Origin: Gammaproteobacteria bacterium
Lineage (GTDB): Bacteria > Pseudomonadota > Gammaproteobacteria > Ga0077536
NCBI GenBank assembly: GCA_016191285.1
Contig: JACPPA010000033.1
Location: 1 to 64,000, forward strand
Reading direction: 5' to 3'
Length of the DNA stretch: 64,000 bases
This document shows, one piece after another, positions 2,560 to 27,229 of this stretch. The translations under genes were made by a program, and so were the position numbers. Under the pieces are notes generated by a model that was not told where the DNA came from, ran no database searches, and saw nothing but the letters and a program-made list of their open reading frames with translations. Positions within the stretch are counted from its first letter, which is position 1; each line of letters starts with the position of its first letter.

Positions 2560-2591
2560 TGGCGGCCAGCAGTTCTGGCGGCCAGCAGTTC
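2560..2591. repeat. 16-bp tandem duplication at a gene end
   Basis: TGGCGGCCAGCAGTTC is present twice head to tail (2560-2575 and 2576-2591). The second copy touches the stop codon of the diguanylate cyclase at 2590. It looks like a small replication-slippage duplication. Confidence 0.8.
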
Positions 2592-4128
2592 AAGCAGTTT
2601 CAGTCACGACTCGATTGCGGCCAGCGTTCTTCGCTTTATACAGCGCACGATCGGCGCGCTCAAAGAAACCTTCTAGCGTGTCGGCAACGGCGAGCTCGGT
2701 AAGCCCGATCGACACCGTCACGGGAACCCGTTGGCCCTGGAATTGGAAGACCGCGCGTTCAATTTGGCGGCGCAGCTCTTCGCAAACCTCGGTGGCCGCG
2801 ACCACGCCCGTATCGGGGAATACGGCGACAAATTCTTCACCACCATAGCGCGCCAACAGATCGGTCGCGCGGACCCGTTGACGGCAAATCGCCGCGACAT
2901 GGCGCAGCACGCGGTCACCGACCTTGTGACCGTATTTGTCATTGATTTGCTTAAAGAGATCCAGATCAAGCACCGCCAAGGCCAGCGAAGTTTCGGTGCG
3001 CCGCGCGCGCAGGATTTCGAGTTGCGCGCGCTCGTCATAAGCCAGCCGATTCGGTAGCTGGGTTAGCGAATCGCGGTAAGCCTTTTCTTGCTCGGTCGCG
3101 AGCGTCTGACGCAAATTAGTCGCTTCTTGCTCGAAGGCGGCGACGCGCCGAGTTAGTTCCGCGATGCGCTCTTCATATTCCGTCTGGCGTGTCCGATGGA
3201 TCGCAACATAGCCCGCGATCGATGAACGTACCGAATGGACGCGCCCTTCGATCGTCTCCTTGAGTTCGGAAAGACCTGATTCACCTTTAATGATGCGAGC
3301 GATTTCCGTCATGTCGGCGTTAATATCTTCGGTAAATTGTTGCGAGGCGGCGACTGAATGCCGACGCTCGTCCACCGACTGTTGCAAGGCCAATTCAACC
3401 GCGCTCAATTCGCCGGTCGCACGCTTAAGGTAATTGTCTAGCGTGTGTACGTCGCGACGAAGATAGGCATGCAGGTCATTTAAAAAAGTGCCGGTCGCGA
3501 GCAGCGGATCCTCGGCGGTGCCGCTGGCAATTTCCGCGCGTAGCGCCTTGGCGCGAGGTTCAAACTCGATCGGCAATAACAACCAGTCAAGCAATCTGCA
3601 AAGTTCGGCAACCCCGAGTCGGGCCGCCGAACTTTCATCCGGCGCGGCATTTACCTGCGCAACATCGTTCAATAAGGCGGCGAACCGCCGCAGCCACGTC
3701 GGCAGTTCGCCACCCGCTTGGCAGCGTGCGCGAAGTTGTTTGGCCTCGAACGCCAGCGCCTCGGGCAGTGTGAGCTGATCGAGCAAGGTCGTGCACGCAG
3801 CCCATGCATCCGGCAGTGGCTCGCCACGCGAGCTCGGAACCGCGGCGCAGGCTTCCACCACCGGGTTCAGCGCCTGCGGGGCGATCGCTACTGGCGGCAC
3901 GCGGACCAATTCACCGCGCAACGTCGCAAGCTGATGATCTAGCGCTTCGTTGACGCCCACGAATAGATGACTGAATTTGAGGACCGCTTGACGCAATAAT
4001 TGGTCTTGCGCGTTCCAGCCAATTTTTTCAGCGTCGTATTCGCGACACAATTCACGATAACGCTGGCGCCAATCGGCGCCAGCGGAATTTAATGACGTGG
4101 TAGTTTCGGTTATTTCGGCAATCGGCAT
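2590..4128 (-). CDS. Diguanylate cyclase (GGDEF) with long helical N-terminal region
   Basis: 512 residues. The C-terminal ~165 residues are a GGDEF domain with active-site GGEEF (ARYGGEEFVAVFPDTG) and an upstream RATD that fits the RxxD inhibitory I-site, spaced five residues before GGEEF. An active enzyme would make c-di-GMP from two GTP and be product-inhibited. DSLTQLPNRLAYDERAQ is the typical domain entry. The first ~330 residues are soluble, Glu/Gln/Ala-rich and helical, with a coiled-coil-like stretch just before the cyclase (TRRVAAFEQEATNLRQTL). There are no membrane segments, so it is probably cytosolic and activated by dimerisation. It is monocistronic; a relic mobile element lies 45 bp upstream. 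Confidence 0.9.
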   Translation of the reverse strand: MPIAEITETTTSLNSAGADWRQRYRELCREYDAEKIGWNAQDQLLRQAVLKFSHLFVGVNEALDHQLATLRGELVRVPPVAIAPQALNPVVEACAAVPSSRGEPLPDAWAACTTLLDQLTLPEALAFEAKQLRARCQAGGELPTWLRRFAALLNDVAQVNAAPDESSAARLGVAELCRLLDWLLLPIEFEPRAKALRAEIASGTAEDPLLATGTFLNDLHAYLRRDVHTLDNYLKRATGELSAVELALQQSVDERRHSVAASQQFTEDINADMTEIARIIKGESGLSELKETIEGRVHSVRSSIAGYVAIHRTRQTEYEERIAELTRRVAAFEQEATNLRQTLATEQEKAYRDSLTQLPNRLAYDERAQLEILRARRTETSLALAVLDLDLFKQINDKYGHKVGDRVLRHVAAICRQRVRATDLLARYGGEEFVAVFPDTGVVAATEVCEELRRQIERAVFQFQGQRVPVTVSIGLTELAVADTLEGFFERADRALYKAKNAGRNRVVTETA

Positions 4129-8508: not shown

Positions 8509-9792
8509 CTAAGTGCGCAAGGCGCGGGCCAATTCCTTGGTCGTATTGCGTAGTCGCTCGATCAGGACATTTTGAAAGGTTTTGCTCATCCGTAATTGGC
8601 AGGGCAGCGAGGCCCATTCCTTGAAGTCGCGGTCGACTCTGAGCACGGTCGATTCGCGATTAGCCGACACCGTGGCGCTACGGCCGCCGTTGGCGAGATA
8701 CTCCATCTCGCCGAAACACTCGCCAGTTTCAAGATCTCGAATACGCACCCCGTTGATCGCGATCGATACCGCGCCATCGACGATCACGAAGAATGCCCGG
8801 TCGCGCTCGCCTTCTGAAAAAATCGCGGTTCCAACGTCTATTCGCTGCCACACCGCGACCTTGCAGATTTCCTTCAATTCGTTCTTGTTGAACTCGCTGA
8901 AAAAAGCGAGCTGCACCATCCGCGCGATCTTTTCATCGTCCGACAAAACCAGCGAAACCGTGCGCGAATCATTTAGGATTTGATCGAGATCGTGAACGAT
9001 TTCGGCGCCATGCTTATAGCGCTTGGCGATATCCTTCTCGAGCATTTTGCGCACGATGCGCCACAATTGTTCAGGCACGTCGTTGCGTAAATCGGTGAGC
9101 GGTTGCGGATCTTCGTGGACGACTTTTTGGATGAGCCCGGTCAGGCCTTTGGCGGCGAATGGCGGCGTGCCGGCCAGCATTTCGTAGAACACCGAGCCGA
9201 GCGAGAATAAATCGGATTGCTGAGTGATGTCCTGATCGCGGGCCTGCTCGGGCGACATGTAGAGCGGCGAACCAAACCAGCCGACGATTTGCGTCTGATC
9301 CGCACCGATGCGACGGGCGATGCCAAAATCGCCGATCTTGGCCACCCCGTCCTTGGTCAACATGATGTTCGCAGGCTTGATATCGCGATGCAGTACGCCG
9401 TGCTTATGCGCGTAATCGAGGGCGTCGGCCGCTTGGCGAACAATGCGCATCACGGCCGCGATCGGCAATAACACCTCGCGTTTGCAGTAATTGCGTAAGG
9501 TGTCACCGCCGGCGATGTACTCCATCACCATATACGGCTGTTCGGCGTCTTCCCCGGCCTCGTAAACCTTCAATACATTGGGGTGATCAAGACGGCCGGC
9601 CGAGCGGGCTTCATTAATGAACAAGCGCCGCGCGACACCCTCGGTACTTTCGCCATCCATGCTGTTGGCGAGTTTGATCGCGACTGGGCGATCGACGTAG
9701 GGATCGTGTCCGCGATAGACCACGCCCATGGCGCCGCGGCCGAGCACGTCGATGACGTCGTATTTACCGATCTTTTTAGGTGCTTCAGCCAT
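8509..9792 (-). CDS. Ser/Thr protein kinase with C-terminal cyclic-nucleotide-binding-type domain (copy 1)
   Basis: 427 residues from ATG 9792; the open frame continues upstream but MAEAPKKIGKYDVI is where the paralogues begin. The Hanks-type kinase at residues 8-270 has glycine loop GRGAMG, Lys40 (VAIK), HRDIKPANIML and DFGIAR: all catalytic elements intact. Residues ~300-410 form a CNB/Crp-like domain (TAIFSEGERDRAFFVIVDGAVSI, then GECFGEMEYLANGGRSATV), suggesting regulation by a small nucleotide or protein contact; the ligand is unknown. No membrane segment, unlike PknB kinases. The start overlaps the end of the DUF1631-GGDEF-EAL gene by 8 bp, so they are one operon and plausibly one signalling unit. 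Paralogues: 31674-32969 and 35012-36295. Confidence 0.9.
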   Translation of the reverse strand: MAEAPKKIGKYDVIDVLGRGAMGVVYRGHDPYVDRPVAIKLANSMDGESTEGVARRLFINEARSAGRLDHPNVLKVYEAGEDAEQPYMVMEYIAGGDTLRNYCKREVLLPIAAVMRIVRQAADALDYAHKHGVLHRDIKPANIMLTKDGVAKIGDFGIARRIGADQTQIVGWFGSPLYMSPEQARDQDITQQSDLFSLGSVFYEMLAGTPPFAAKGLTGLIQKVVHEDPQPLTDLRNDVPEQLWRIVRKMLEKDIAKRYKHGAEIVHDLDQILNDSRTVSLVLSDDEKIARMVQLAFFSEFNKNELKEICKVAVWQRIDVGTAIFSEGERDRAFFVIVDGAVSIAINGVRIRDLETGECFGEMEYLANGGRSATVSANRESTVLRVDRDFKEWASLPCQLRMSKTFQNVLIERLRNTTKELARALRT

Positions 9793-12700
9793 CCGCTTCC
9801 AACAACAGGCGGGTTGAACGCGAGGCATCATGCACGAAATCGACGCCGATTTCGCGTAACACCTCGAGCAGTCCGGCTTCGGCGTTGATCTTACCGACCG
9901 TGAGCTTGCCCATGAAGTGCGCGAGTTCGTTGATCGATTTCGCCATCGCCAAGTCCTTCGGATCTTGGCGCGCGTCGGCGACAAAACTACTTTGAATCGT
10001 CACGAAATTAACGGCCAATTCTTTCAGATATTCATAATTCGACTGGCCACCACCGAACTCGGCCAAAATGAATTGGCAACCAAATTCGCGCAGGGTATTG
10101 ATGAGGTCGGCGGTCTCGTTCAATTTGGCGAACGCGTCCTTATCATCGATCTCGAAGCACACCCGTGACGGCGGTACGCTGGTCTGCATCAACTCCCCGA
10201 CGATCACATTTGCGATATCGTCTTTGTCTAACGCCGCACGCGATAGCGGCACGATAAACGCACTGAAGCGCTCGAGATTTTCGGCGTGCGCGGTCATCCA
10301 TTTCAAGGTGCCGCGCAGGGTCCAAAGATCGACCGTATAGGCGTGCGCGGTCGCGATTGCGGCTTGCGTGAATAACGCCGGTGGCACGAGCTTACCATTG
10401 CGATCCTCGGCGCTGACCACCACGCGTGCCGCGGGTAACGCCTGGCGCGTAATGCCACGCACTTCATTAAACAGCAGCGCCAAGCGTTCGCGTTCGATCG
10501 CTTTGCTGACATAGCTCATCATCTGTTCGATCTGCTTGCGGAATTTATTATCAGCGCCGGCGACATAAATCGGCTTATCCGGCGTTGTTCTCGCGAGTCC
10601 GCACGCATCGCCGACCGCCGCCATCAGTTGCTCGACCGACACGAGTTCATCCTCGATCGCGGTAAGTCCGGCGACAAATTTCGGCTGTGCTTGAACGCCA
10701 CTTGCCGCGGCGATTTTTTCAATGAGCGCCTGCATTTCACGATAAGCGGATTGGAGTCCGCCGCGCTGCCAAAACACGCCCCACTCTCCGCCACCGAGTC
10801 GACCAAGGTGCACCGGCTTCTTATCGAACACATTTTTCAGTTCGTCGCTAAGACTCTTGATTAGGCGATCACCGGTATCAATGCCGAATTGATCGTTTAT
10901 CGATTTTAAATTCTCAAGCGACAATTGACCCAGCACCGCGCCCGTATTCAACGGTCCCGTTTGCTTCAGTAACGGTTCGATGGTCTGCAGGAAGGTTTTG
11001 CGGTTTGAAAGCCCCGTGAGCGAGTCATGCATCGCATGTCCGGCTACTTCCTCATGGATTCGATTGACCACCCCAAACAAGGCGCGATCGAAGGCATTAT
11101 CGCCTTCGCCGGTCAGCGGTTTGATAATGCCGCGTCGCAAATACATCGCAACCTGCTGCAAGGTAAGCGATGCGGATTTTTGGCCAGCGGTGTCAGCTAA
11201 TACGAAGGGGTTGTAATCGTCCCCCACCCACACCAGGCTTACTGGGTAAGGCGCTTTGGACGTGGCGTTCATCAACACGCGATCGCCAACCCGCAAGGCT
11301 TTGGCGCGCGCGATCCAACGCGTTAACTCGGGCGGCGCCACCGGCTGCGGTTGGGTTGATTCGCCGGACGAAGTACCGCTGCGGTCACGCCGCTCACGCA
11401 ATACGCGTTGCTGATCTTCACACGCGGCGACCACGGCTTGAATGTTCCGCGCGTAAGCACCGCGTTGTTCCGAGAGCACGGAATCTAGTTCGCCTAGCAC
11501 CGGGTCAAGCGGCGGCAAATTGCGGTCGAACGAAAGATTGACGCCATCCACCATTTCGCGCACGCGGTCGGCAACACGCTGACCTGACGCGCCGGGGTCG
11601 AGCTGGAGCATCGAGACGCGGTTTACAAGCTGACGTAACGGATGCTGAGTTGAAGCCAAGAATTCTGCGTCAAGCAACGCCGCCTTATGTACTGACCCTT
11701 GCAACCGCTTGAGATTACCCTTGGCGAAATCCGCGACCATTGAATCGCGCAACAGAGCTTGAAATAAATTGACGATGATTTCGATCGCATCGCTTTCGGT
11801 TTGACCGAGGCCGCGCGCTTCAACGCCGCGTGCAGCCAAGGCCTCGCCGATCCGGGACTTAATATTGTCGCTGGTGAGGAGTTCAGGCTCCACGGTCCCG
11901 GTGAGATACTGCTGAAGATCCGACAAGCCGTCCGCGATCTGTCCCATGGAATAGGAACCACGCGGAGCATTATCCGGCGCCGCCACCGGATTGACTTGCC
12001 GGCGTAATGCGAGTTGCGCCTGCGCGGTCGAGAACGCCTGTTCGAAATTCGGCATCATCGACACCGCCGGACCAAAACCAAACCCGCTGAAGGTCGAATC
12101 GAGTCCGATGCCACTGCCGACCATTTGTGGTCCGGTCGCGCCGAAGTTGCCGGCTTGTACCCGGCCTGGTGCGAACGCCGTGCCAGCGCGCATTTCGGCC
12201 CCAGGTATGCCCGAACCCACGGACACCGGAGGCGCCCCCCATGAACCCGAAGTAGGCGGTCCGCTTACCGCCGAGTACCCGGGACCGGCAGGACTAACCG
12301 CCGGGGCGCTTGGATAGTTAGCGCCCGCGCCACCCGCCGGCAGGGGAGATTGCGCCACGCCCGGTGCGCGCGGACTGCCACTTGCCAGCGGACCACCAAC
12401 CGCCGGGTACCGTGGCTGCGTGTAGGACAACCGATTCATCGTGTCCGCAAGATTGGCCGGCGGCGTGGTCCCCTTCACTCCGGCTTTGGACGCTTCGAGC
12501 GGATTCGGGGCGCTGGTGGGGGCGCGTGAATCGTTGGGCGTGCGGCGTACGCCGAGCTTCGCGTCGTGATCGATTTTCGGAAGTATGCCTGTTTCGATCA
12601 GAAGAGTGTTCGCTTCGTCGTACAATCGTTCGAGTTCCGGCTCGATGGTTCGCCGCAACGTCTTGTACACCACGTCGCTAATTTGGCGATCGAATGATAC

Positions 12701-13603
12701 CCCCTTCATAGCCTCGGCGAACGCGTTGCAAATCAACGCTGGGGCGAGTGGGTTGGAGTCGTCATCGATTTCGCGTCGCGCTAAGAACGAAAAGCGCTGA
12801 TTGAGTTCAAACAGAGGTTTTTTAAATTTGGCCTCAAGATCCGACACCACTTCCGATACCGACAAAAATTCCTCGAACTCGTCTTTATCCACCAATGACA
12901 AGTTGGACAGCTCGGCGCCTCCCTTCGGCGATTTCGTGCGCAACGGGTTATTAAGTGTAGTCACCGCCTTGGTCATGAGCTGCGGCACATGTTCCTTAAT
13001 TTCGTCAGCGCGCCGACGCAATTGGACTTGTGCGTCAGTGAACTTGGATTGTTCGCGATTAGTGCGAGCGTCGCGTGCGCCGATAAACAAGGCATCGCCG
13101 GCGAGGCGAGTAAATTCAATCGCGATATGGGCCGCGGACCGTTCCGCAAGTTCGGTAAGCCCGGGTAGCGCGCGGCCAAACTCGGGCGCAAATCGGCGCT
13201 GAGTATCGGCTAACGATTCTCCCGGCTTTACGTCGGTCGCGGCCGGCGTTGCTTGCGCCAGATTGTGCAGTAGTCCGATGACTTTCGGGTCGGGCGCTTT
13301 GAACGCGACCCCCAGGCCGTTGCTGGTCACCCGGCACACGGTTAACGCCATTTGGAAATCCTGCCGGCGATCCTCAAGCCTCAACGCAAAATAGACCACG
13401 GCGGGCGTCTGTGGCTGTACGAATCGAAGTTGCCGCATGTCGATCTGAATAAACATGCCAGCCACACAGAAATCCTTGACCACGCAGGCGATGGCGGGGC
13501 GCGGTCCAAGCGCGAGCATCGCCTCAAGTTGCAGCGGCAACCGCAAGTAGCGTCGGCGCTCACGTCCAGAATTTGTCGAATCAGCGTCTTGCACGATTTC
13601 CAA
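9785..13603 (-). CDS. Giant PilZ-DUF1631-GGDEF-EAL-type signalling protein (cyclase and esterase parts degenerate)
   Basis: 1272 residues. Residues ~15-110 resemble PilZ (RERRRYLRLPLQ with the RxxxR-type start, then KDFCVAGMF, where the usual D/NxSxxG has Cys for Ser), so c-di-GMP binding is possible but weakened. The middle third fits DUF1631, with a Pro/Gly/Ala-rich linker around 400-520. Around 860-1020 is a GGDEF fold (HDSLTGLSNRKTFLQ) whose active site reads GGGEW, so cyclase activity is unlikely. The last ~240 residues are EAL-like but lack the EAL signature (LALLFNEVRGI). It probably acts as a receptor or scaffold rather than an enzyme. No membrane segments. Its 3' end overlaps the kinase-CNB gene, implying coupled translation. 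Confidence 0.85.
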   Translation of the reverse strand: MEIVQDADSTNSGRERRRYLRLPLQLEAMLALGPRPAIACVVKDFCVAGMFIQIDMRQLRFVQPQTPAVVYFALRLEDRRQDFQMALTVCRVTSNGLGVAFKAPDPKVIGLLHNLAQATPAATDVKPGESLADTQRRFAPEFGRALPGLTELAERSAAHIAIEFTRLAGDALFIGARDARTNREQSKFTDAQVQLRRRADEIKEHVPQLMTKAVTTLNNPLRTKSPKGGAELSNLSLVDKDEFEEFLSVSEVVSDLEAKFKKPLFELNQRFSFLARREIDDDSNPLAPALICNAFAEAMKGVSFDRQISDVVYKTLRRTIEPELERLYDEANTLLIETGILPKIDHDAKLGVRRTPNDSRAPTSAPNPLEASKAGVKGTTPPANLADTMNRLSYTQPRYPAVGGPLASGSPRAPGVAQSPLPAGGAGANYPSAPAVSPAGPGYSAVSGPPTSGSWGAPPVSVGSGIPGAEMRAGTAFAPGRVQAGNFGATGPQMVGSGIGLDSTFSGFGFGPAVSMMPNFEQAFSTAQAQLALRRQVNPVAAPDNAPRGSYSMGQIADGLSDLQQYLTGTVEPELLTSDNIKSRIGEALAARGVEARGLGQTESDAIEIIVNLFQALLRDSMVADFAKGNLKRLQGSVHKAALLDAEFLASTQHPLRQLVNRVSMLQLDPGASGQRVADRVREMVDGVNLSFDRNLPPLDPVLGELDSVLSEQRGAYARNIQAVVAACEDQQRVLRERRDRSGTSSGESTQPQPVAPPELTRWIARAKALRVGDRVLMNATSKAPYPVSLVWVGDDYNPFVLADTAGQKSASLTLQQVAMYLRRGIIKPLTGEGDNAFDRALFGVVNRIHEEVAGHAMHDSLTGLSNRKTFLQTIEPLLKQTGPLNTGAVLGQLSLENLKSINDQFGIDTGDRLIKSLSDELKNVFDKKPVHLGRLGGGEWGVFWQRGGLQSAYREMQALIEKIAAASGVQAQPKFVAGLTAIEDELVSVEQLMAAVGDACGLARTTPDKPIYVAGADNKFRKQIEQMMSYVSKAIERERLALLFNEVRGITRQALPAARVVVSAEDRNGKLVPPALFTQAAIATAHAYTVDLWTLRGTLKWMTAHAENLERFSAFIVPLSRAALDKDDIANVIVGELMQTSVPPSRVCFEIDDKDAFAKLNETADLINTLREFGCQFILAEFGGGQSNYEYLKELAVNFVTIQSSFVADARQDPKDLAMAKSINELAHFMGKLTVGKINAEAGLLEVLREIGVDFVHDASRSTRLLLEADG

Positions 13604-15587: not shown

Positions 15588-15662
15588 CTCGCCATAGTTC
15601 AACGGATAGAACGGGGCCCTCCTAAGGCCCAGATGCAGGTTCGATTCCTGCTGGCGAGGCCA
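15588..15662 (+). tRNA. tRNA-Arg (anticodon CCU)
   Basis: A full cloverleaf can be folded: acceptor CTCGCCA pairs with TGGCGAG, the D arm is GTTC/GAAC, the anticodon stem GGGCC/GGCCC encloses loop CTCCTAA (anticodon CCT), and the T arm GCAGG/CCTGC encloses TTCGATT. Discriminator G is followed by encoded CCA (15660-15662). A tyrosine integrase gene begins 173 bp downstream in the same direction, making this tRNA the likely attachment site of the island. Confidence 0.93.
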
Positions 15663-15666
15663 TAAG

Positions 15667-15768
15667 GACTTCCGTAGACTTCCGTAGACTTCCGCTACCG
15701 TCCGCAATTCGCAGTATTTCCGTAGGTTTACCGATATTTTTCTTCCGCTACCCTCCGCTGCCGTCCGT
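15667..15768. repeat. CTTCCG-rich repeats next to the attachment site
   Basis: GACTTCCGTA is repeated in tandem at 15667-15676 and 15677-15686, with a third, altered copy (GACTTCCGCTACCGTCCG) following. A related block (TCTTCCGCTACCCTCCGCTGCCGTCCG) lies at about 15741-15767. Repeats of this type beside attL are usual binding sites for the integrase arm domain or an excisionase; that role is inferred from position. Confidence 0.6.
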
Positions 15769-15835
15769 TGATAGCCGGGGGTAACAGGAGGTAGATATAG
15801 GGGTAACTACCAGATGCCAGAAAGCAGTTACCCTC

Positions 15836-16975
15836 ATGCCGCTAACCGACACCGCCATGCGGAACACCAAACCCAGCGCGAAGCCGCAGAAGCTTTTTGA
15901 CGCTGGCGGCTTGTTTATGCTGGTCGCCGCCAACGGCGGGCGATGGTGGCATCTCAAGTACCGCTTTGGGGGTAAGGAGAAGTTGCTGTCGCTCGGCACT
16001 TACCCCGAGGTGTCCTTGAAAGACGCCCGCGATAAACGAGACGCGCTCAGGAAGCAGATAGCTGCAAAAATCGACCCGTCGGACGTCCGCCGCGACGAAA
16101 AGGCCGCGCGCGAGTACACCTTTGAAGTTGTCGCGCGCCTGTACATCGCGGCTCGGTCTAAGAAATGGTCGCGCCGAACCCTTGAGTTGGTAACCAGCCG
16201 CCTTGAAAAGGGACTATTCCCCAAAATCGGCAAGCGTCCTATTCGCCTCATTCTGGCAAGGGAGCTGTTACGCGTGCTGGAACCTATTCAGGCGCGTGGC
16301 GCTGTGGAAACGGCACACCGTCTTCGGCAGGACGCCAGCCTGATTTTCTGTTTCGCATTGGCGCAGGGTTATGTTGATCGGGACCCCGCAGCGGATTTAC
16401 GCGGGTCGCTTGATGAGCGCACGACGAAACACCATGCAGCGATTACGGACGCTAGGGAAATTGGCGCCCTCCTGCGAGCCATCGGCGGCTATACAGGCGA
16501 GCCTGCGGTCCTGGCTGCGCTCCGCCTTGCGCCGCACGTTTTTCTCCGCCCTGGCGAGCTACGTGCCGCGGAGTGGTCCGAAATCGACTTCGATGCGGCG
16601 GAATGGCGCGTGCCGGCGAATCGCATGAAGCTCAAGGAGACGCACCTCGTTCCCCTCTCGCGACAGGCATTACGAATATCGGCAGAACTCCGCGCTATCA
16701 CTGGCAAGCGTCGTCTCGTTTTCCCGAGTATTAGAACGGCTGAGCGACCAATCTCCGAGAACACCGTGAATGCCGCCCTACACCGTTTGGGTTACACGAA
16801 AGAGCAGATGACCGGGCACGGCTTTCGGTCGATGGCATCTACGCGGCTCAACGAATCTCAGAAGTGGCACAGGGACGCGATCGAGCGACAGCTAGCCCAT
16901 GGCGAGCGCGACAAAGTCCGAGCGTCGTACAACTACGCCGAGCACCTCACCGAGCGCCGCAAGATGATGCAGTGA
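15836..16975 (+). CDS. P4-type tyrosine recombinase/integrase, C-terminus cut by a stop codon
   Basis: 379 residues. The N-terminal DUF4102-type arm-binding region (residues 1-90, KLFDAGGLFMLVAANGGRWW) is followed by the core-binding and catalytic domains. Catalytic residues visible are Arg in LRPGELRAAEW, His-x-x-Arg in HGFRSMAS, His in LAHGERD and Tyr in SYNYAEHL. It should integrate and excise the island at tRNA-Arg. After MMQ-TGA at 16973-16975 the same frame continues WSNYLDALRDGAEIVPLHKKA to a TAA at 17039-17041. That tail is the normal end of this family, so the gene has a nonsense mutation removing about 21 residues after the catalytic Tyr. Activity is uncertain. The native stop codon lies inside the target site of element copy A. 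Confidence 0.88.
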   Translation: MPLTDTAMRNTKPSAKPQKLFDAGGLFMLVAANGGRWWHLKYRFGGKEKLLSLGTYPEVSLKDARDKRDALRKQIAAKIDPSDVRRDEKAAREYTFEVVARLYIAARSKKWSRRTLELVTSRLEKGLFPKIGKRPIRLILARELLRVLEPIQARGAVETAHRLRQDASLIFCFALAQGYVDRDPAADLRGSLDERTTKHHAAITDAREIGALLRAIGGYTGEPAVLAALRLAPHVFLRPGELRAAEWSEIDFDAAEWRVPANRMKLKETHLVPLSRQALRISAELRAITGKRRLVFPSIRTAERPISENTVNAALHRLGYTKEQMTGHGFRSMASTRLNESQKWHRDAIERQLAHGERDKVRASYNYAEHLTERRKMMQ

Positions 16976-17037
16976 TGGAGCAATTATCTGGATGCGTTAC
17001 GCGATGGCGCCGAAATCGTGCCGCTGCACAAAAAGGC

Positions 17038-17165
17038 TTAAGGAAGCTCTGCAAAAGGCAGAGCTTCCCGCGGCACAGGGAGGTGCCGCCATTTTCGATG
17101 GTTGCAAACCATTGAAAATGAAGGGAAGCAAAAATCATACTTTTTGCTTCCCGTACTCTGAATAA
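17038..17165 (+). mobile_element. YTAR hairpin element, copy A (right end missing)
   Basis: It begins GGAAGCTCTG at 17042 after TTAA (17038-17041) and matches copy D through the three main hairpins, then stops after CTCTGAATAA near 17165. The last ~28 bp of a full copy and the second target duplication are absent, replaced by CCGCCCGGGACGG. It was truncated by later recombination or deletion. It sits exactly at the original 3' end of the integrase gene. Confidence 0.85.
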
Positions 17166-17263
17166 CCGCCCGGGACGGTCTCCCGGAAATTGGAACGGCG
17201 GGGACGGTGGTAGTAGCACCGGACCCGCCTAACCTCAACGTGACCTTACGAGGAGGACACATC

Positions 17264-17569
17264 ATGGCTAAGGCAAATGTTAACCGCACCACGCAACCGG
17301 ATAGAAGCGATGAAATCGTAGAACTAGTGAACCTCGTTCAATTCGTCCTGGACGAACTTGAGGAGAAAATCGAGGACCTGGATGACGAAAACTACTACGA
17401 CCGCCGGGCGGTTTGCCTGGCTCTGGTGAAAGGGATTTTGGACATTCCAGATCAAATTATTGGGCTCGCGAAGTCAGACGATCTCGAAGCGTTGTTTGAA
17501 CGCCGATACGAGAATCTCGCCACTCAGGCTGCGAGAGAGGCTTCGACTGCCGCGGAGGTGTCAACATGA
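17264..17569 (+). CDS. Small acidic hypothetical protein, 101 aa
   Basis: ATG 17264 is preceded by a strong AGGAGG at 17251-17256. The 101-residue product (MAKANVNRTTQPDRSDEIVE...) is acidic and helical, with a run ELEEKIEDLDDENYYD and no recognisable catalytic motif. Its stop overlaps the next start region by ATGA (17566-17569), so it is translationally coupled to the DUF4258/HTH pair that follows and may be a third component of that module. Function unknown. Confidence 0.65.
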   Translation: MAKANVNRTTQPDRSDEIVELVNLVQFVLDELEEKIEDLDDENYYDRRAVCLALVKGILDIPDQIIGLAKSDDLEALFERRYENLATQAAREASTAAEVST

Positions 17570-17831
17570 ACTGGACCGTGAATCCGCGAATGTCATCATT
17601 GGCTACCATGCTCGTGCGCGAATGTCCGAACGTGACATTTTTATCGATGATGTTTTCCGGGTGCTGCGAACCGGAAGCGTTAACGCCGATCCTATCCGCA
17701 CCGATCGCGGTGAATGGCAATGCAAAATAGCGAAACGAATCAAAGACACGCGATCTGTAGGCGTCGTCACGATCATCTTTCACGAAGAGAAACTATTCCC
17801 TAAAACCGTCGAATGGGAAGACTTACGATGA
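17566..17831 (+). pseudogene. DUF4258 putative toxin, start region frameshifted
   Basis: The frame ending at 17831 encodes a DUF4258 domain: IGYHARARMSERDIFIDDVF, then RTGSVNADPIRTDRGEWQCK and VVTIIFHEEKLFPKTVEWED. This domain is found in RelE-like toxins of type II pairs. No in-frame ATG precedes it. The natural-looking coupled ATG at 17566 (ATGAACTGG) is out of frame by one base; one more A after ATG would give M-K-L-D-R-E-S-A-N-V-I-I-G-Y-H. Either the gene lost an A, or translation starts at CTG 17571. The downstream HTH gene overlaps it (ATG 17828). Confidence 0.7.
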
Positions 17832-18316
17832 ATGTGAATCATTGGCGGCACAAAGACGAAAAATTAAAGAAGCCGTTGCACTTTCTGGAGTGCGGGCTGG
17901 ATGACGTTTATCTCGTGAGTGGATACGAAGTCGCCAAGACGCCGTACGGGAAAGGCGTTGCGGTGAAAAACGTCGACGCCTTGCTCCGCGCTATCGGGAC
18001 CAAACTCGCGACCGAGAAAAATTCGCTCACGGGCAAGGAGCTGCGCTTCCTGCGTAAACAGATGGACCTAACGCAGCCGGAATTGGGAAAACTCGTCGGC
18101 CTGAGTGGCCAGCAGGTGGCGCGCTGGGAGAAAGGTGAATACAAGATCCCCGGTCCGGCTGATCGGTTGGTCAGATTGCTGTTCATCCAAAACGCCGGCG
18201 GCAGCGTCGACCTCCGAAAACTTCTACGTAAGCTGGAAGCACGCGAGGCGCCGACAAAAGAGCCGCTCGTCTTCGAGAAGACTGCCAAGGGCTGGCACAC
18301 CAAGAAGGCGGCGTAG
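17828..18316 (+). CDS. Helix-turn-helix antitoxin partner of the DUF4258 gene
   Basis: 162 residues. The N-terminal part HFLECGLDDVYLVSGYE with TPYGKGVAV is the family entry; residues ~62-120 are an Xre-type HTH (LTGKELRFLRKQMDLTQPEL, LVGLSGQQVARWEKGEY). It probably binds its own promoter and neutralises the DUF4258 toxin. ATG 17828 overlaps the toxin stop by 4 bp, typical of a type II pair with the toxin gene first. The frame is intact although the toxin frame looks damaged. Confidence 0.82.
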   Translation: MNVNHWRHKDEKLKKPLHFLECGLDDVYLVSGYEVAKTPYGKGVAVKNVDALLRAIGTKLATEKNSLTGKELRFLRKQMDLTQPELGKLVGLSGQQVARWEKGEYKIPGPADRLVRLLFIQNAGGSVDLRKLLRKLEAREAPTKEPLVFEKTAKGWHTKKAA

Positions 18317-18608
18317 ATGGCCCGACGTAAACGACCTATCGGTAGCGATTTCGATCAATATGCTTGCGTGGATCTTAAATTCTGATTGCAAAATTAAATT
18401 ACGTCGGTAGGCTTTTGTACGTCAGCGGAAATTGAGCTAACGCAAGCCTAGCGATAAAGGCATTCAAGACCCGCGACACTCCCTGCGATCCGCAGCTCAG
18501 CGACACGAGCTGTGGCCAGTCGTCCCCGCCGCGGCAGGAAAGAAGGCTCGCGCAACTATTTAGTTGCCGGGGCCTGCATTTTTCCGCGCGCCCTGGCGGA
18601 GATTCAAA

Positions 18609-18779
18609 ATGGAACTAATCCCTACTGCACCAAACTCGGAGAGCATTTCGCCGAGTGATTCGTCTCATGCAGCGAGCTATATCAACTTCGAAATCATCCG
18701 CGAAAGACCCAGCCAGCAACAGAAAGCGTTAGGTACTGGTCATTCAGACTATTACCGCCGACTGAAGGAAAGGTTATGA
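18609..18779 (+). CDS. Small hypothetical protein, 56 aa
   Basis: MELIPTAPNSESI... to ...RRLKERL. No domain is recognised. Its TGA overlaps an ATG at 18776 (ATGA), a phage-like gene arrangement. The 292-bp stretch before it (18317-18608) has no convincing gene; it contains an AT-richer patch near 18370-18420 that could hold a promoter. Confidence 0.35.
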   Translation: MELIPTAPNSESISPSDSSHAASYINFEIIRERPSQQQKALGTGHSDYYRRLKERL

Positions 18780-18836
18780 CCATCGCTAGGCAAGGACGGT
18801 CGTATCAGCTGCGGATACCGTCACGAGCGATTACGA

Positions 18837-18956
18837 ATGATGGCCGCCGATCTGGCTACAGATGACGAACGTCGGGCGCTGGTTTTGGAAATCGAAGCCT
18901 CGCGCCCGAAAATTTTCGCGAGGTTGAGGGCCGCTTTTGACGCGGTAGCAGCCTAG
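18837..18956 (+). CDS. Very small phage-type ORF, 39 aa, possibly frameshifted at its 5' end
   Basis: MMAADLATDDERRALVLE... to ...FDAVAA. It is strongly helical, with good codon use. An ATG at 18776, coupled to the preceding ORF, opens MTIARQGRSYQLRIPSRAI in another frame and meets a stop after about 29 codons. The two pieces together would make one ~60-residue protein, so a one-base shift near 18830 is likely. Too short for confident assignment. Confidence 0.4.
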   Translation: MMAADLATDDERRALVLEIEASRPKIFARLRAAFDAVAA

Positions 18957-19746
18957 ATCAGCGCCCCCGAAATCGGGGGCGCTGCGCAGAAAGTCTCAAC
19001 CGAAGTCGCTAGAAACGACGGACGAGATTTTGCGCCGACCCCTCACACGAATCAAGCGATCGAACCGCTCACCCGCGAAGATGCGGGCGCGCTCAAGCTC
19101 TATGAGCACGTAATCGAGTCAGGGCTTAAAACGTTTCTCCAAGTCGGAAACGCATTCACGTATATCCGCGATATCCGTCTCTACAGAGAACAATTCACGA
19201 CTTTCGATGGCTACTGTAAGGTGCGCTGGGGCATAAGTCGGCAGCGTGCGTATCAACTGATCGGCGCAGCTGGGACTATCGGGCATTTGTCTACAATTGT
19301 AGACACTGAGAACGTGTCTCCCATGGGGGACATCCTCCCCGACGCAGAATCCCAAGCTCGCCCGCTGGCCTCACTTGCACCGGCCGAACAGCGCGAAGCA
19401 TGGGCCGATGCTGTTACGACCGCTCCACGCGACGAGCACAACAAGCACGAAGATTACTGGTGCCCATGTTACTCAAGTAGCAGAGCGCCGTCGCGAGCTA
19501 AGACCGCGCGATGATGCCGGTCCAAGCCCGGTCCATCCGGAAAAGCCCAAACCCGTACTTGGGATTAATGATGCCGTAACGGCACTGCGCAAGGCTGTGG
19601 AGCGCGAACCTAAGAGTGCGCAGTTCGCACTCGCAGACTTGCGCGAATGCGCTACCCGCGACTACTCACCGTTAACACGCGATGCGCCTGGCTCGTTTCA
19701 CGAGCTGGTTGAGATCGTCGGTCTGCTGTTGGGGGTGCCGTCATGA
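18957..19746 (+). pseudogene. ParB-like phage/plasmid DNA-binding protein, frameshifted
   Basis: The first frame (18957-19514) encodes GALKLYEHVIESGLKTFLQV, TYIRDIRLYREQFTTFDGYC and RWGISRQRAYQLIGAAG, a pattern common in phage and integrative-element proteins of unknown role that end in an HTH-like SRxRAYxLI segment. At about 19440-19455 the homology passes to the +1 frame: KITGAHVTQVAERRRELRPR and so on to 19746. A one-base indel therefore splits the gene. No ATG opens the first frame either; an ATC directly follows the upstream stop, so the start codon may also be mutated. GTG 19221 is the first conventional start. Confidence 0.7.
19289..19304. repeat. Perfect 16-bp palindrome
   Basis: GTCTACAATTGTAGAC is a perfect palindrome inside the ParB-like pseudogene. 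Its core TACA-N2-TGTA resembles operators of BlaI/CopY-type repressors, but its position in a coding region and the lack of such a regulator in the window make a regulatory role unproven. Confidence 0.5.
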
Positions 19747-20065
19747 AGCACGGCATTGTGCCTCGCGACCTCTGGCTTGAGCCGCGATTCAAACGCCTAT
19801 CGCCTCGCGCCAAACTCATCTTCCTCAATCTGCTGACATCACCGTACGGAAATTCGGCGCAACTTTATCGAGTTGGTCCCGAAGAAATTGGATTAGCCAG
19901 GGTGGGCTCGCGGCGTACGATCCAGAATTTAATCTCGTTTGGCTAGAGCGCCAGATGGTGACGGAATTGGGCGCGACATTGAAGCCCGATGACAACCGCA
20001 TTAAATATCTTCAGAAACTGTTAATTGAATTGCCACACTGTGTGATCAAGCGCGAGTTTGAATAA
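19743..20065 (+). pseudogene. Phage replication-initiator-like gene, disrupted
   Basis: ATG 19743 overlaps the preceding stop (ATGA). The first 60 residues (PRDLWLEPRFKRLSPRAKLI and the following YGNSAQLYRVGPEEIGLARV) look like the N-terminus of small phage replication proteins. The frame then closes at 19946, while another frame from about 19905 continues YDPEFNLVWLERQMVTELG and IKYLQKLLIELPHCVIKREF to TAA 20063-20065. The pieces fit one protein with a shift plus probable internal loss. Confidence 0.55.
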
Positions 20066-20093
20066 AGTTGCCGCCTGCGATTGGAAGTGCGGC

Positions 20094-20971
20094 ATGAACT
20101 GGCTTCACGACCTCCTTGGCGAAACGGCGGCTCGCGGCCTGGCACCGGCGAACGGCGTTACGACGGATGGCCTGCTGCATCGTTTCCGCGTCGACGGTGA
20201 CAAACCTGGATCGCGCAATGGCTGGTACGTGGTGCACGCTGACGATCACCCGACGGCTGTCTTCGGATCCTGGAAGACCGGCGCGCAACACACCTGGCGC
20301 GCGTCCGCCCCGAGTCACGACACTGGCGAGACAAAGCGCCAACACATCGCAGTCGAACAACGCCGACGCCAAGCCGAAGAAACCAGGACCCACGCCGACG
20401 CTGCGGCACGCGCTCGCCGAATCTGGGATCAGGCACTCGATCCCGATCCGAGCCACCGCTATTTACGTGGCAAAGCGATCCGTCCATATGGAATTCGTCA
20501 GCATCAAGACGCGCTCGTCGTGCCGCTCAAGGACATCGCCGGCAAGCTTTTCAGCCTCCAATTCATCGCACCTGATGGCCACAAGCGATTTCTGCGCGGT
20601 GGCCGGGTGAAGGGTCTGTTTGACGTGATCGGACCCCGCACGCCGCGAGTTTGGCTGTGTGAAGGCTACGCCACCGGAGCAAGCCTGCACGAAGATCGGC
20701 GCGAGTGCGTAGTCATCGCGTTTAACTGCGACAATTTGCTGGCCGTCGCCGAAAGCATCGTGAAGGGCTGGCGGCCGCAGTCACTAACCGTCATGGCCGA
20801 TGACGACTGGCAGACGCCTGGCAATCCTGGCGTCGCCGCGGCGCGCGAAGTGTCGGACAAACTTAATCTCGACTGATACGTGCCCGAGTTCCCCCTAACC
20901 GGCCCGGGTGGGCGACGGATTTCAACGATGCTGTTCGCTTGGCGCTGACGACGCGTAAGGGGGCAGCATGA
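20094..20971 (+). pseudogene. TOPRIM-domain phage primase, 3' frameshift
   Basis: From ATG 20094 (MNWLHDLLGET) the frame encodes a primase-like protein: RYLRGKAIRPYGIRQHQDAL, then PLKDIAGKLFSLQFIAPDG and the TOPRIM core VWLCEGYATGASLH with its catalytic Glu, and VMADDDWQTPGNPG carrying the second acidic motif. It stops at 20876. In another frame ARVPPNRPGWATDFNDAVRL follows to TGA 20969-20971; TDFND is the normal end of this family. A one-base shift near 20873 thus removes the tail. The true end overlaps the helicase ATG (ATGA). Confidence 0.75.
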
Positions 20972-22560
20972 TCGATCTACGCCCCCACCAAGAGCGCGGC
21001 GTTGAGTTGCTTCGAGAAGGTTTTCGGGTGGGCCACCTTCGGCAATTGTTGGCGATGCGGTGCGGCGCCGGCAAGACTATTACCGCGGCCAGTGTCGCGT
21101 TATCGGCCAAAGCCAAAGGCAACGTCACCCCGTTTATCGTCGACCGCATTGAACTCGCTGCGCAGGCCGCTGACACCATGCAGCGCGTCGGGCTTACCGT
21201 TTCGATTATGCAGGGCGAGAACACAAACATGGTGACGGGTCATGGCGTTATCGTTGCCAGCATCCAAACCTTGGCGCGGCGACGATTTCCTGATGCCCGG
21301 CTGATCGTCATCGACGAAGCCCATGTGCTGCACCAAGCGCATATCAAACTACTTGAGCGCTGGAATGCGCTGCCGGTTATTGGGCTCACCGCGACGCCTT
21401 TTGCGTGCGGCCTTGGTCGCCATTTCACCAACCTAGTGGTCCCAACCGCGATCCGCGATCTCACCCATGACGGTTTACTCGTGCCGGTTGTTGCGTACGG
21501 CCCGAACAAACCAGACTTAGGGAAACTCTGAATAAGTCCATCCTGGACTTTTCAGAGTACGGGAAGCAAAAAGTATGATTTTTGCTTCCCTTCATTTTCA
21601 ATGGTTTGCAACCATTGAAAATGGCGGCACCTCCCTGTGCTTTTAGGAAGCTCTGCCTTTTGCAGAGCTTCCTTAGCCGGCATCGAAACACGCGGCGGCG
21701 ACTATGCAGTTGGGCAGCTACCGGCGCGCATGCAGCACCCCACCATTCACGCGGATATCGTTGAGACGTGGCAGCGCCTCGGCGAGAACCGGCCGACCCT
21801 AGCGTTTGCCTGTGACATCGCGCACGCCAAACACATCGCAGCGAGTTTCAATGACGCCGGAATTTCCGCGAGTAGTGTCGACGCGTATCAGAATACCGAC
21901 GAACGCCGCGACACCATCAAGCGCTTTAAGGCTGGCGAGATCAGGGTCCTGGTGTCGGTTGCGTGTCTGTCGGTTGGATTCGATGCGCCGATAGCCGCCT
22001 GTGCCCTCCTCGCGCGGCCGACCAAGCCGTTAACCGTGCATCTGCAACAAATTGGTCGCGTGCTTCGACCTTACTCTGACAAAGCCGACGCCATCGTCCT
22101 CGACCATTCAGGAAACATCGAACGTCACGGCCTACCGGATGACATCGCGATCGGCGCGCTCAATACCCACACCAAAACATGGAGCGTGAAAGCAGGACGA
22201 GAGCCAACGCCGAAACCGTGTCAGAAGTGCGCGTTCTTGAAACCGCCGAGCACGCACAAGTGTCTGCAGTGTGGATTCGCGTTGGAGCGACAGAGCACCG
22301 TCCAACGCAGCGACGGCGAGCTGATTGCGCTCACGACCGTCGCAGCGCTTCAAAGCAACCGACGCCTGTATCAGGAATATCTCGGATGTGCCGAGCACTT
22401 CGATAAAAGTCGTGGCTGGGCTTATTACCTTTGCTTGGCGAAAACCGGCGAGAAACCCGCATGGAGTTGGAATTCACTCACTGCGATCGAGCCCAGCGAC
22501 GAGACGTTGCGCTACGCCAAGTCCCAACTGATCCGGTTTGCGAAAAGGCGGGCTGCGTGA
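20968..22560 (+). pseudogene. SF2 DEAD/DEAH-type helicase interrupted by element copy B
   Basis: The first part (20968 to 21520) has Walker A RCGAGKT, DEAH box VIDEAHVL and motif III TATPF. The second part (21677 to 22560) has the C-terminal RecA domain: LAFACDIAHAKHIAASFND, VSVACLSVGFDAP and QQIGRVLRPY, then a Cys cluster CQKCAFLKPPSTHKCLQCGF that may bind zinc. Removing the 152-bp element plus one TTAG joins ...NKPDL to AGIETRGG... in frame, so the insertion is recent and the rest is intact. As it stands the first frame stops inside the element (TGA 21529-21531). It probably acted in island replication next to the primase. Confidence 0.9.
21517..21676 (-). mobile_element. YTAR hairpin element, copy B (152 bp, inside helicase gene)
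   Basis: Element 21521-21672 is flanked by TTAG at 21517-21520 and 21673-21676. Ends are GGAAACTCTG and CAGAGCTTCC. Internal stems: CTCTGAA/TTCAGAG around AAGTCCA/TGGACTT (21526-21557); a perfect 12-bp stem GGGAAGCAAAAA/TTTTTGCTTCCC (21561-21590); a perfect 13-bp stem CATTTTCAATGGT/ACCATTGAAAATG (21593-21623); and an 11-bp stem GGAAGCTCTGC/GCAGAGCTTCC (21646-21672). There is no transposase gene. Confidence 0.93.
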
Positions 22561-22842
22561 GCGAAGAAACGATCCGCCACGCGACCGAGATCAGCTTGGA
22601 CGCCGAGCGGAAGCTAGGGGCGATCTTGGCGGATTCGCCTAAGAACGAAGGGACGCTTCTCCGTGGTACCGAAATAGAACCACGGGAAAAAACACCAACT
22701 CTCGCCGAACTCGGCATCAGCAAAAAAAACCAGTGCTAGAGCCCAGAAGCTTGCTGAACTTCCAGATGAAACTTTCGAGGCCGTGAAAACAGGCTCGGTG
22801 CCCTTCGGGCCGAAGAAGAAATACGGTCGGCGACCAGTGTTG
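22557..22842 (+). pseudogene. Phage-type protein with frameshift in an A8 run
   Basis: GTG 22557 overlaps the helicase stop. The frame encodes IRHATEISLDAERKLGAILA and EKTPTLAELGISKK, then breaks after eight As (22722-22729). With seven As it would read ISKKTSARAQKLAELPDETFEAV, the usual continuation of this family of phage proteins of unknown function. The 3' end is not clear because the second frame runs on antisense to higA; I end it where higA begins. Confidence 0.65.
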
Positions 22843-23130
22843 CTATGCCGTCATCGCCGGCACGTCCCGCTCGATCACCCGACCAAGGCTCTGTCTAGTG
22901 ACGGAAAGATCGTAGTGCGTTTGGAGGTTCAGCCAGAATTCCGGGGTGGTGCCGAAGTACCGGGCCAAGCGCAGCGCGGTATCCGCCGTGATAGCGCGCG
23001 TGCCGTTGACGATACCGGTAATACGGTTCGCCGGCACGCGCAGCGCTTTCGCCAGCGCATAGGCGGTGAGCCCGAGTTCGTCCAGAAACTCAGTCTTAAG
23101 AATTTCGCCGGGATGGATGGGTGCACGCAT
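22843..23130 (-). CDS. higA: HigA-type antitoxin (pair 2)
   Basis: 95 residues, standard length. It has the HigA entry IHPGEILKTEFLDELGL, an Xre HTH (AYALAKALRVPANRITGIV) and the family end TPEFWLNLQTHYDL. It binds and neutralises the HigB encoded just upstream and represses the shared promoter. It is 12 bp after higB on the minus strand. The order toxin-antitoxin is the normal higBA order. Intact. Confidence 0.93.
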   Translation of the reverse strand: MRAPIHPGEILKTEFLDELGLTAYALAKALRVPANRITGIVNGTRAITADTALRLARYFGTTPEFWLNLQTHYDLSVTRQSLGRVIERDVPAMTA

Positions 23131-23142
23131 GGTGTAAGGTCC

Positions 23143-23427
23143 TCAGTGATAGTCCGCTATTCCAACTTGGTAGGCATCGCCACCGCGCCACGCAAAGCAG
23201 ATCCGATACTGGTCATCGATCCGGATGCCGTATTGCCCGGTGCGATCGCCATGGAGCTTCTCAAGCCGATTCGCTGGCGGCGAGCGCAAGTCACGCAAAT
23301 CGGCCGCGGCATGCAGCATAAGAAGCTTCCCGTGTGCCCTTTTCAACAGGTAGCGCGGGACAATATCGGGGCTCCCGCCGTCGAATATCGCCTGCGTCTT
23401 GGCACAGGCCCATGTCTTGATTGCCAT
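23143..23427 (-). CDS. higB: HigB-type RelE-family toxin (pair 2)
   Basis: 94 residues with the RelE/HigB fold pattern: DLRDLRSPPANRLEKLHGD, then GQYGIRIDDQYRICFAW and the end VGIADYH. In this family it is a ribosome-dependent mRNA endonuclease. It is first gene of the pair, with a strong promoter directly upstream. About 50% of its C-terminal half is identical by eye to the HigB of pair 3, whose antitoxin is broken. Confidence 0.93.
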   Translation of the reverse strand: MAIKTWACAKTQAIFDGGSPDIVPRYLLKRAHGKLLMLHAAADLRDLRSPPANRLEKLHGDRTGQYGIRIDDQYRICFAWRGGDAYQVGIADYH

Positions 23428-23429
23428 TC

Positions 23430-23470
23430 GTACGCATTATGTTTTACATACATAGATACGTCAAGCGTAC
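23430..23470 (-). promoter_or_regulatory. higBA (pair 2) promoter with flanking inverted repeat
   Basis: Reading leftwards: -35 TTGACG (23464-23459), 17-bp spacer, -10 CATAAT (23441-23436). The expected start of transcription is within a few bases of the higB ATG at 23427, so the mRNA would be leaderless or nearly so. GCGTAC (23465-23470) and GTACGC (23430-23435) flank the core promoter as inverted repeats and could be the HigA operator. Confidence 0.65.
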
Positions 23471-23531
23471 ACAGTGGATATCACGTTACGCAACCCTTGT
23501 GACGGTCGAGCGAAGGCGCGAGATCTAACCG

Positions 23532-23696
23532 ATGAGCATTGAACGCTTCCGTCGCCTGATCAAGGACGCACCCGCGCCAGGTGACGATGGCGAGAGGCTA
23601 GCGTCCGCACTGACGAGATACATCGACAAAGCTCCGCGCGGGATGACACTCGACGAAGCACTGGGCGTAAAGCCAGCGTCAGGTAGTCGCGCTTAG
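23532..23696 (+). CDS. Small hypothetical protein, 54 aa
   Basis: MSIERFRRLIKDAPAPGDDG... to ...LGVKPASGSRA. It lies between higBA and further phage-like small ORFs. It has good codon use and an acidic/basic helix pattern, but no known domain. Confidence 0.45.
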   Translation: MSIERFRRLIKDAPAPGDDGERLASALTRYIDKAPRGMTLDEALGVKPASGSRA

Positions 23697-23712
23697 TGGC
23701 AACGCGAGGAAC

Positions 23713-24038
23713 GTGAACGCCAACGCGAAGCCGCCCACGTTCTTGTCACATTATGCCCAGCAAGAGGCCGCTCAAAAGCCGCGACGATCGCTGATTCGCT
23801 ACGACGTTATCAGGGTGGACGCTGGCAACTGGACCATCGTCGCGAAACTTGCGCCGGCTTCGATCGGAAGCGAAACGCCATGCACGCTTTGCTGACGGCG
23901 AATAATGGTGGCGTCCCGTCCTCGAAAACGATTAAGCGGCTACTCGACGAAGTGGACACAAGCCACCAAGGCTCGTGTCCAGTAACCCGTGGTCCAATAG
24001 ACGAAGAAGTACCCGATGATGAATGCACGGCCGATTGA
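23713..24038 (+). pseudogene. Hypothetical island protein, probably frameshifted
   Basis: The first frame (23713-23895) reads PTFLSHYAQQEAAQKPRRSL then DVIRVDAGNWTIVAKLAP. From about 23857 another frame continues FDRKRNAMHALLTANNGGVP, KTIKRLLDEVD and ends at TGA 24036-24038. Coding character passes from one frame to the other, so I infer a one-base indel. Function unknown. Confidence 0.4.
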
Positions 24039-24210
24039 AGTACTCGATGACCTGACGTTAGTTGCAGATCGCAAGGTCGTTGCGCATCTGTTGCCGTCGC
24101 AAGCGCTCGACCTAGCGGAAATTTTAGTTCGCTCCGGCATGCGCCGAATTCTGTTCGAGGAAGGCGCCGATTCATTGCTGGTCGAAGAGTCGGCGCAGCC
24201 GTCCGACTAA
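24016..24210 (+). CDS. Small hypothetical protein, 64 aa
   Basis: MNARPIEVLDDLTLVADRKV... ends in ...SLLVEESAQPSD. It looks like a compact alpha/beta protein with regular codon use. It overlaps the end of the preceding frame by about 23 bp, a phage-like arrangement. No domain recognised. Confidence 0.5.
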   Translation: MMNARPIEVLDDLTLVADRKVVAHLLPSQALDLAEILVRSGMRRILFEEGADSLLVEESAQPSD

Positions 24211-24232
24211 ACCCAACCGTAAGGATATTGCT

Positions 24233-24526
24233 ATGCCTAGAACCAAATCTAGTCACCCAGGCGTGCCGGATCGAGCGCTGTGGAACGATTTCGAGGATGG
24301 CCCTGGCGATATAAATATCTACGAAGCGGTGCGGAGTGACCACAGCAACACCACAGCGCTAGACCGTGGCGGGGTTGGAAGTCGGGATGACCGCGTGATC
24401 CCTGGCCCGGATACCGAGTCCAGGATAGGGACTGCGAAGAACCTCATAGCGGAGGGCAGAAGCGTCTTTCTGGAGCATTCTGGAGCATTCTGGAGCATTC
24501 TGGCGCCCCCGATAGGCCTGAATTAG
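24233..24526 (+). CDS. Hypothetical protein, 97 aa, MPRTK-type start
   Basis: ATG 24233 follows GTAAGGATATTGCT. It is acidic (WNDFEDGPGDINIYEAV), with no known domain. The C-terminus runs through a 10-bp tandem repeat (24471-24500), so its last residues depend on repeat copy number. The gene at 24571 starts with the same five residues (MPRTK) and a similar layout, suggesting two diverged related genes. Confidence 0.5.
   Translation: MPRTKSSHPGVPDRALWNDFEDGPGDINIYEAVRSDHSNTTALDRGGVGSRDDRVIPGPDTESRIGTAKNLIAEGRSVFLEHSGAFWSILAPPIGLN
24471..24500. repeat. Tandem 10-bp repeat, three perfect copies
   Basis: TGGAGCATTC is repeated at 24471-24480, 24481-24490 and 24491-24500, preceded by TTTC and followed by TGGCG. 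The unit is not a multiple of three, so gain or loss of a copy shifts the reading frame of the ORF that contains it. Confidence 0.9.
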
Positions 24527-24570
24527 ACAAAGGCAACGCCCGCATTCGCGGCGCTTAAAGGAGACCGATC

Positions 24571-24759
24571 ATGCCAAGAACCAAAACCGACCAAGAACTG
24601 CCGACCGACGACCAGATCGTACAACCGTTCGACTATGAGAGTTATTCGACCGATCGCGCGAAAAGTCCGCAGCCGGGCTACAACGATTCGATGATCACTG
24701 ACCAAAATCCGAATTCGGCGCGTCGCACGCCGCGCAATCCACGAATTCGTGGGGTATAG
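24571..24759 (+). CDS. Small hypothetical protein, 62 aa, MPRTK-type start
   Basis: ATG 24571 has a good ribosome site (AAAGGAGACC). The product MPRTKTDQELPTDDQIVQPF... is polar and Pro/Asn-rich and looks disordered. It starts like the 24233 product. It ends 3 bp before the target site of element copy C. Function unknown. Confidence 0.5.
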   Translation: MPRTKTDQELPTDDQIVQPFDYESYSTDRAKSPQPGYNDSMITDQNPNSARRTPRNPRIRGV

Positions 24760-24762
24760 CGC

Positions 24763-24922
24763 TTAGGGAAACTCTGAATAAGTCCATCCTGGACTTTTCA
24801 GAGTACGGGAAGCAAAAAGTATGATTTTTGCTTCCCTTCATTTTCAATGGTTTGCAACCATTGAAAATGGCGGCACCTCCCTGTGCCTTTAGGAAGCTCT
24901 GCCTTTTGCAGAGCTTCCTTAG
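24763..24922 (-). mobile_element. YTAR hairpin element, copy C (152 bp)
   Basis: Element 24767-24918 has TTAG at 24763-24766 and 24919-24922. It is nearly identical to copy B (for example GTGCCTTTAGG against GTGCTTTTAGG), with the same four stems. It is inserted between two genes, without damage to either, about 13 bp upstream of the terminase small subunit start. Confidence 0.93.
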
Positions 24923-24934
24923 GTCGAACGTGAT

Positions 24935-25372: not shown

Positions 25373-25515
25373 ACGCCACGATGGGCATTGAGTATCGACC
25401 ACCAGGGCCGATCGCGGCGTCGTTTCTGCGTTCGGACGCGTTCGTGTGTGGCATTCGCGGACCCATCGGCTCGGGCAAGTCCACAGCCTGTGTGATGAAG
25501 CTCCTCCGGCACGCG
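25369..25515 (+). pseudogene. Phage terminase large subunit, N-terminal fragment
   Basis: About 49 residues remain: IEYRPPGPIAASFLRSDAFV, then a Walker A motif GPIGSGKSTACVMKLLRHA. This is the ATPase start of TerL. The homology ends near 25515 where IS3-family sequence begins on the opposite strand; the rest of the ~500-residue protein, including the nuclease, is gone from the window. The prophage cannot package its own DNA with this gene. Confidence 0.85.
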
Positions 25516-27217: not shown

Positions 27218-27229
27218 GAGGATACGAAT

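Follow-up and report, generated by a model that had tools for sequence, protein, structure and literature searches.

The window analysed here, a 64,000-nucleotide stretch of gammaproteobacterial DNA, carries two overlapping genes, one for a kinase with a cyclic-nucleotide-binding (CNB) domain and one for a large PilZ-DUF1631-GGDEF-EAL protein, whose linkage is conserved across families and whose functional sites show a pattern of kept and lost residues. On balance, we favour the view that the large protein has become a c-di-GMP receptor or scaffold without catalytic activity and forms one unit with a cNMP-gated kinase; ligand binding, complex formation, the direction of control, and phosphorylation and its targets are what we infer within such a unit. 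Control of kinases by c-di-GMP is known mainly for histidine kinases. The conserved two-gene unit would join c-di-GMP and cyclic mononucleotides to Ser/Thr phosphorylation and supply DUF1631, a family still uncharacterised, with a partner that can be tested. Furthermore, the kinase-free relatives with an intact EAL domain and the kinase-linked ones with a decayed domain would provide a natural series for the evolution of an enzyme into a receptor.

Both genes, and all of the domains described below, lie on the minus strand. The large gene is the upstream partner (9785-13603; 1272 amino acids, by translation and Pfam), with a TTG start at 13603 or, equally possible, a GTG start at 13594. The kinase-CNB gene lies downstream (8509-9792; 427 amino acids), running from an ATG at 9792 to a stop at 8509, as assigned by translation, Pfam and ortholog alignment. 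The stop of the first gene and the start of the second share exactly 8 bp (ATGGCTGA, 9785-9792), as claimed in the first-pass annotation of this DNA, whose coordinates, domains and motif readings for both genes also proved correct by translation, Pfam and alignment. A scan for consensus promoters and terminators gave fewer matches than in shuffled sequence, so it is the gene overlap that speaks for co-transcription of the pair.

The pairing extends well beyond the window. The first-pass annotation had proposed a survey of genomes for this adjacency and had staked its reading on conservation in relatives; the two genes are adjacent in all 23 same-family genomes in which both sides of the junction lie on one contig, as well as in 12 genomes of four other families (f133, four; f134, five; f67, two; f29, one), which brings the total to 35 genomes in five families, all with the same gene order. 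Within the family, the junction varies between a 17 bp overlap and a 14 bp gap; the exceptions are a single gap of 64 bp and a copy with a frameshift. A further same-family genome (G012) has the orthologous kinase at a contig edge, and the 10 same-family genomes that lack the large protein also lack the orthologous kinase. The same-family genomes are mostly drafts assembled from uncultured organisms, and the named relatives retrieved are nearly all assemblies of uncultured Gammaproteobacteria, some of them evidently mislabelled. In the window's family, the pair is surrounded by glnS and by dgkA-, lexA- and imuA/imuB-like genes (assigned from sequence, with no family search), while in f133 it is accompanied by genes for an Lhr-type helicase and a glycerate kinase. 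Since the neighbours differ between families, the pair has outlasted the rearrangement of its surroundings, and the neighbourhood comparison found no other gene, including any output gene, that accompanies it across families. At one f133 locus (L129, 1077-2015), a gene for a protein with an FHA domain, the type that reads phosphothreonine, lies two genes away from the pair.

A class-wide DUF1631 search provided an unlinked set of 19 DUF1631-GGDEF-EAL proteins whose genes have no adjacent kinase; most of them contain PilZ, and they are spread over 17 genomes and 12 families. A search at E 1e-60 found no full-length kinase-CNB protein anywhere in these 17 genomes. In a tree built on the PilZ and DUF1631 columns only, with the enzyme domains excluded, all linked proteins form one clade (support 99/98), and this clade was recovered with an SH-aLRT of 98 when the tree was repeated with f67 added. 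The linked kinases, in a tree that excludes those of f67, also form one clade (99/97), separate from the kinase-CNB paralogs found elsewhere in the genomes. With one linked clade in both trees, the linkage thus arose once, as far as sampled. The complete EAL catalytic set is present in 18 of the 19 unlinked proteins and, among the linked ones, only in G168, G403 and G375, and both GGDEF residues, Asp and Glu, occur in 13/19 unlinked versus 2/25 linked proteins (G016 and G022); given the single origin of the linkage, these counts are non-independent and the contrast partly reflects one historical event. Within the linked clade, the EAL set must have been lost about three times separately (in the window's family, in f133 with f67, and in G280/G402), a count that depends on deep branches with moderate support only.

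The N-terminal part of the large protein contains the site that appears to have been kept. Its PilZ domain (residues 15-113; 13265-13561; Pfam 2.7e-6 and predicted model) retains RxxxR (R17 and R21), and its second motif reads D44-x-C-x-x-G49, with Cys in place of the Ser of DxSxxG. The description of PilZ as partly altered was overstated, since RxxxR, the Asp and the Gly are intact and only this Ser differs. The same Cys occurs in most linked and most unlinked members, including relatives with intact enzyme domains, and is thus ancestral and no mark of PilZ decay. Conservation of the PilZ Arg, singled out earlier as a check, holds for both Arg residues in 24/24 readable linked proteins, all of which also keep the Asp/Asn. 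In G004, the second motif has decayed to DFAPAD, which counts against the receptor reading. The PilZ model matches the PilZ domain of BcsA with a Z of 14.1 and an rmsd of 1.8 Å over 96 residues, and in the fold search the model of the N-terminal half also matches other c-di-GMP-bound PilZ domains.

PilZ is followed by DUF1631 (residues 164-850; 11054-13114; Pfam PF07793, 3.7e-80, and model), whose profile match of 270.8 bits compares with a curated cut-off of 33.7. The model shows two helical blocks and a linker, along with a small C-terminal part rich in beta structure. The fold search matched the helical blocks only weakly, as is common for helical bundles, and explained PilZ alone; weak matches of this type give no evidence for a new fold. 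The linker inside DUF1631 (residues 344-516; 12056-12574), of low complexity and rich in Pro, Gly, Ala, Ser and Thr, has a pLDDT below 50 and is predicted to be disordered, and one may speculate that it offers a place for phosphorylation. No description of DUF1631 function was found in the searchable open-access literature, where the name appears in three papers, a single time in each. The NCBIfam name PacR was rejected for the large protein, for which it scores 93.9 bits, far below its cut-off of 1200, and could not be traced to any bacterial c-di-GMP paper in the open-access literature. At L001 (G000:C49:59869-63827), a full-length DUF1631 gene that stands alone directly follows a GGDEF-EAL gene of the same genome, an order also seen in G013, which provides another tie of DUF1631 to c-di-GMP.

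The C-terminal part is where decay is found. In the GGDEF domain (residues 857-1001; 10601-11035; Pfam 7.8e-16), alignment bore out the earlier reading of the cyclase site as GGGEW, and the I-site RxxD is absent; by its motifs, the protein falls outside the GGDEF diguanylate cyclases, which carry GG[D/E]EF with the metal-binding Asp/Glu. In the EAL domain (residues 1032-1257; 9833-10510; Pfam 1.6e-28), ExLxR reads RVVVS, DDFG reads AEFG, KID reads TIQ and AE reads GK. The loss of the EAL motif noted earlier thus extends to six of the seven positions of the catalytic set (E, N, E, D, D, K, E), and same-family relatives are likewise without most of this set. The dead domain has strongly conserved residues of its own, SAEDRNGKLVPP and SINELxHFMGK. 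EAL domains of the FimX type bind c-di-GMP through ExLxR, and a degenerate EAL domain can bind (PMC12564702); RVVVS in place of this motif leaves PilZ as the one c-di-GMP site predicted in the large protein. The window also encodes, at 2590-4128 and 5 kb from the pair, a diguanylate cyclase that has a DGC-associated coil and matches the GGDEF profile strongly over its full length.

The 427-residue partner is, by its motifs, a Hanks-type Ser/Thr kinase and is predicted to phosphorylate proteins. Its kinase domain (residues 11-260; 9013-9762; Pfam PF00069, 3.7e-53) contains a G-loop GRGAMG, the VAIK Lys40, HRDIKPAN and DFG, and these catalytic motifs are conserved among the linked kinases, of which a few show small variants of the G-loop in the alignment. 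The nucleotide-type sensor expected at the C-terminus was recovered by Pfam as a CNB domain (residues 288-420; 8533-8931; PF00027 cNMP_binding, 2.8e-13), with a phosphate-binding cassette, FGEMEYLANGGRSATV, that includes Glu362 and Arg371. Both residues are invariant in 39/39 aligned kinase-CNB proteins, which settles the conservation of the phosphate-binding Arg raised in the first-pass annotation. In most aligned kinases, a Ser/Thr directly follows this Arg; such a residue has been noted for cGMP kinases and also for some cAMP sensors (PMC6717892), so either nucleotide may be the CNB ligand. In a PDB search, the best full-length and the best CNB matches are cGMP-dependent kinases of apicomplexans; the predicted model of the full-length kinase is poor, with a pLDDT of 65. 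With 13 matches to class III nucleotidyl cyclases encoded in the window's genome, a cNMP signal for the kinase is plausible. In a class-wide kinase survey, 59/369 sampled genomes contain kinase-CNB proteins; being this widespread, the kinase type is not special, and it is the pairing with the large protein that is.

This pattern, in which enzyme sites are lost in the linked clade and the Arg residues of PilZ and CNB are kept, supports, at the level of sequence, the receptor or scaffold role suggested for the large protein in the first-pass annotation. In the scenario we propose, the ancestor would have been a PilZ-DUF1631-GGDEF-EAL protein with an intact EAL catalytic set, and one event would have put a kinase-CNB gene directly downstream of it. 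Afterwards, the cyclase site would have decayed, as would the phosphodiesterase site in several lineages, while the c-di-GMP site of PilZ stayed, so that the large protein would most likely act as a c-di-GMP receptor and scaffold via PilZ and DUF1631. A tentative extension, possible but not what we would bet on, is a coincidence detector in which c-di-GMP at PilZ and cAMP or cGMP at CNB jointly gate Ser/Thr phosphorylation, and which evolved from a c-di-GMP enzyme turned kinase scaffold.

The main rival reverses the direction of control. The cNMP-gated kinase would phosphorylate the large protein, in the linker or in the dead GGDEF-EAL part, and the large protein would be the output: a PilZ effector, tuned by phosphorylation, that acts on a further system, for example pili or polysaccharide export. 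Gene order and linkage leave the direction unfixed, and both the long Ser/Thr-containing linker, predicted to be disordered, and the dead EAL domain's own conserved residues (SAEDRNGKLVPP and SINELxHFMGK) would suit such a role. A conserved phosphosite, on the other hand, could not be established, and no output gene accompanies the pair, which leaves us regarding this reversal as rather unlikely.

A rival in which the two genes share no more than a transcript and work independently of each other seems improbable, even though gene overlap is commonplace in bacterial operons and the interaction within the unit is putative. The pair has been maintained in five families whose neighbouring genes differ, loss of one gene goes with loss of the other, and each tree gathers the linked copies into a corresponding clade. 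Conserved linkage and co-decay would still not amount to proof of a physical complex, which weighs against the unit. The catalytically dead state of the large protein is challenged, in turn, by kinase-linked members that keep the EAL set (G168, G403 and G375) or the GGDEF Asp and Glu (G016 and G022). The former, together with the FimX precedent of a degenerate EAL domain that binds c-di-GMP (PMC12564702), would speak for residual c-di-GMP enzyme activity or for binding via EAL in the manner of FimX/LapD; we hold this to be very improbable, as most of the catalytic positions are gone from the window protein and from its relatives in the family, and ExLxR has become RVVVS.

The preferred reading, a dead receptor or scaffold in one unit with the kinase, has partial parallels in known systems. 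Pkn1 of Myxococcus xanthus also joins a Ser/Thr kinase with PilZ, but does so in a single polypeptide whose PilZ is predicted not to bind c-di-GMP, and it is described as kinase and PilZ only, hence without CNB, DUF1631, GGDEF or EAL (PMC8316039). Bd1971 of Bdellovibrio likewise brings a CNB-type cNMP sensor and EAL into one pathway, but it is one protein, an active cAMP-gated phosphodiesterase, without a kinase (PMC6717892). HapZ-SagS resembles the proposed unit in that a PilZ protein regulates a kinase, but it consists of a two-component histidine kinase and a separate PilZ adaptor (PMC12564702). None of these three shows the kinase-CNB / PilZ-DUF1631-GGDEF-EAL arrangement. FimX and LapD share with the large protein a catalytically dead GGDEF-EAL tandem within a large multidomain protein; FimX keeps ExLxR and binds c-di-GMP in EAL (PMC12564702), whereas the large protein has lost the motif and its predicted site is PilZ. 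The apicomplexan cGMP-dependent kinases, like the window kinase, unite the kinase domain and CNB in a single chain, but with several N-terminal CNB domains instead of one at the C-terminus. The pairing is undescribed in the open-access literature searched, a scope outside of which subscription papers fall.

Two more kinase-CNB paralogs are encoded in the window, at 31674-32969 and 35012-36295, where they flank pgi (phosphoglucose isomerase; 33140-34759), and this kinase-pgi-kinase order is also present in another member of the window's family, G020, as well as in families f119 and f140. The stretch at 15588-30000, which lies between glnS and the pgi region, is likely an integrated island: a tRNA-Arg is followed by an integrase (15836-16975) and by some 14 kb of short ORFs in a mosaic. 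A near-identical ORF fragment (FRVREAKSMIFASLHFQWFATIENGGT...) occurs twice within it, at 16947-17219 and 27214-27513.
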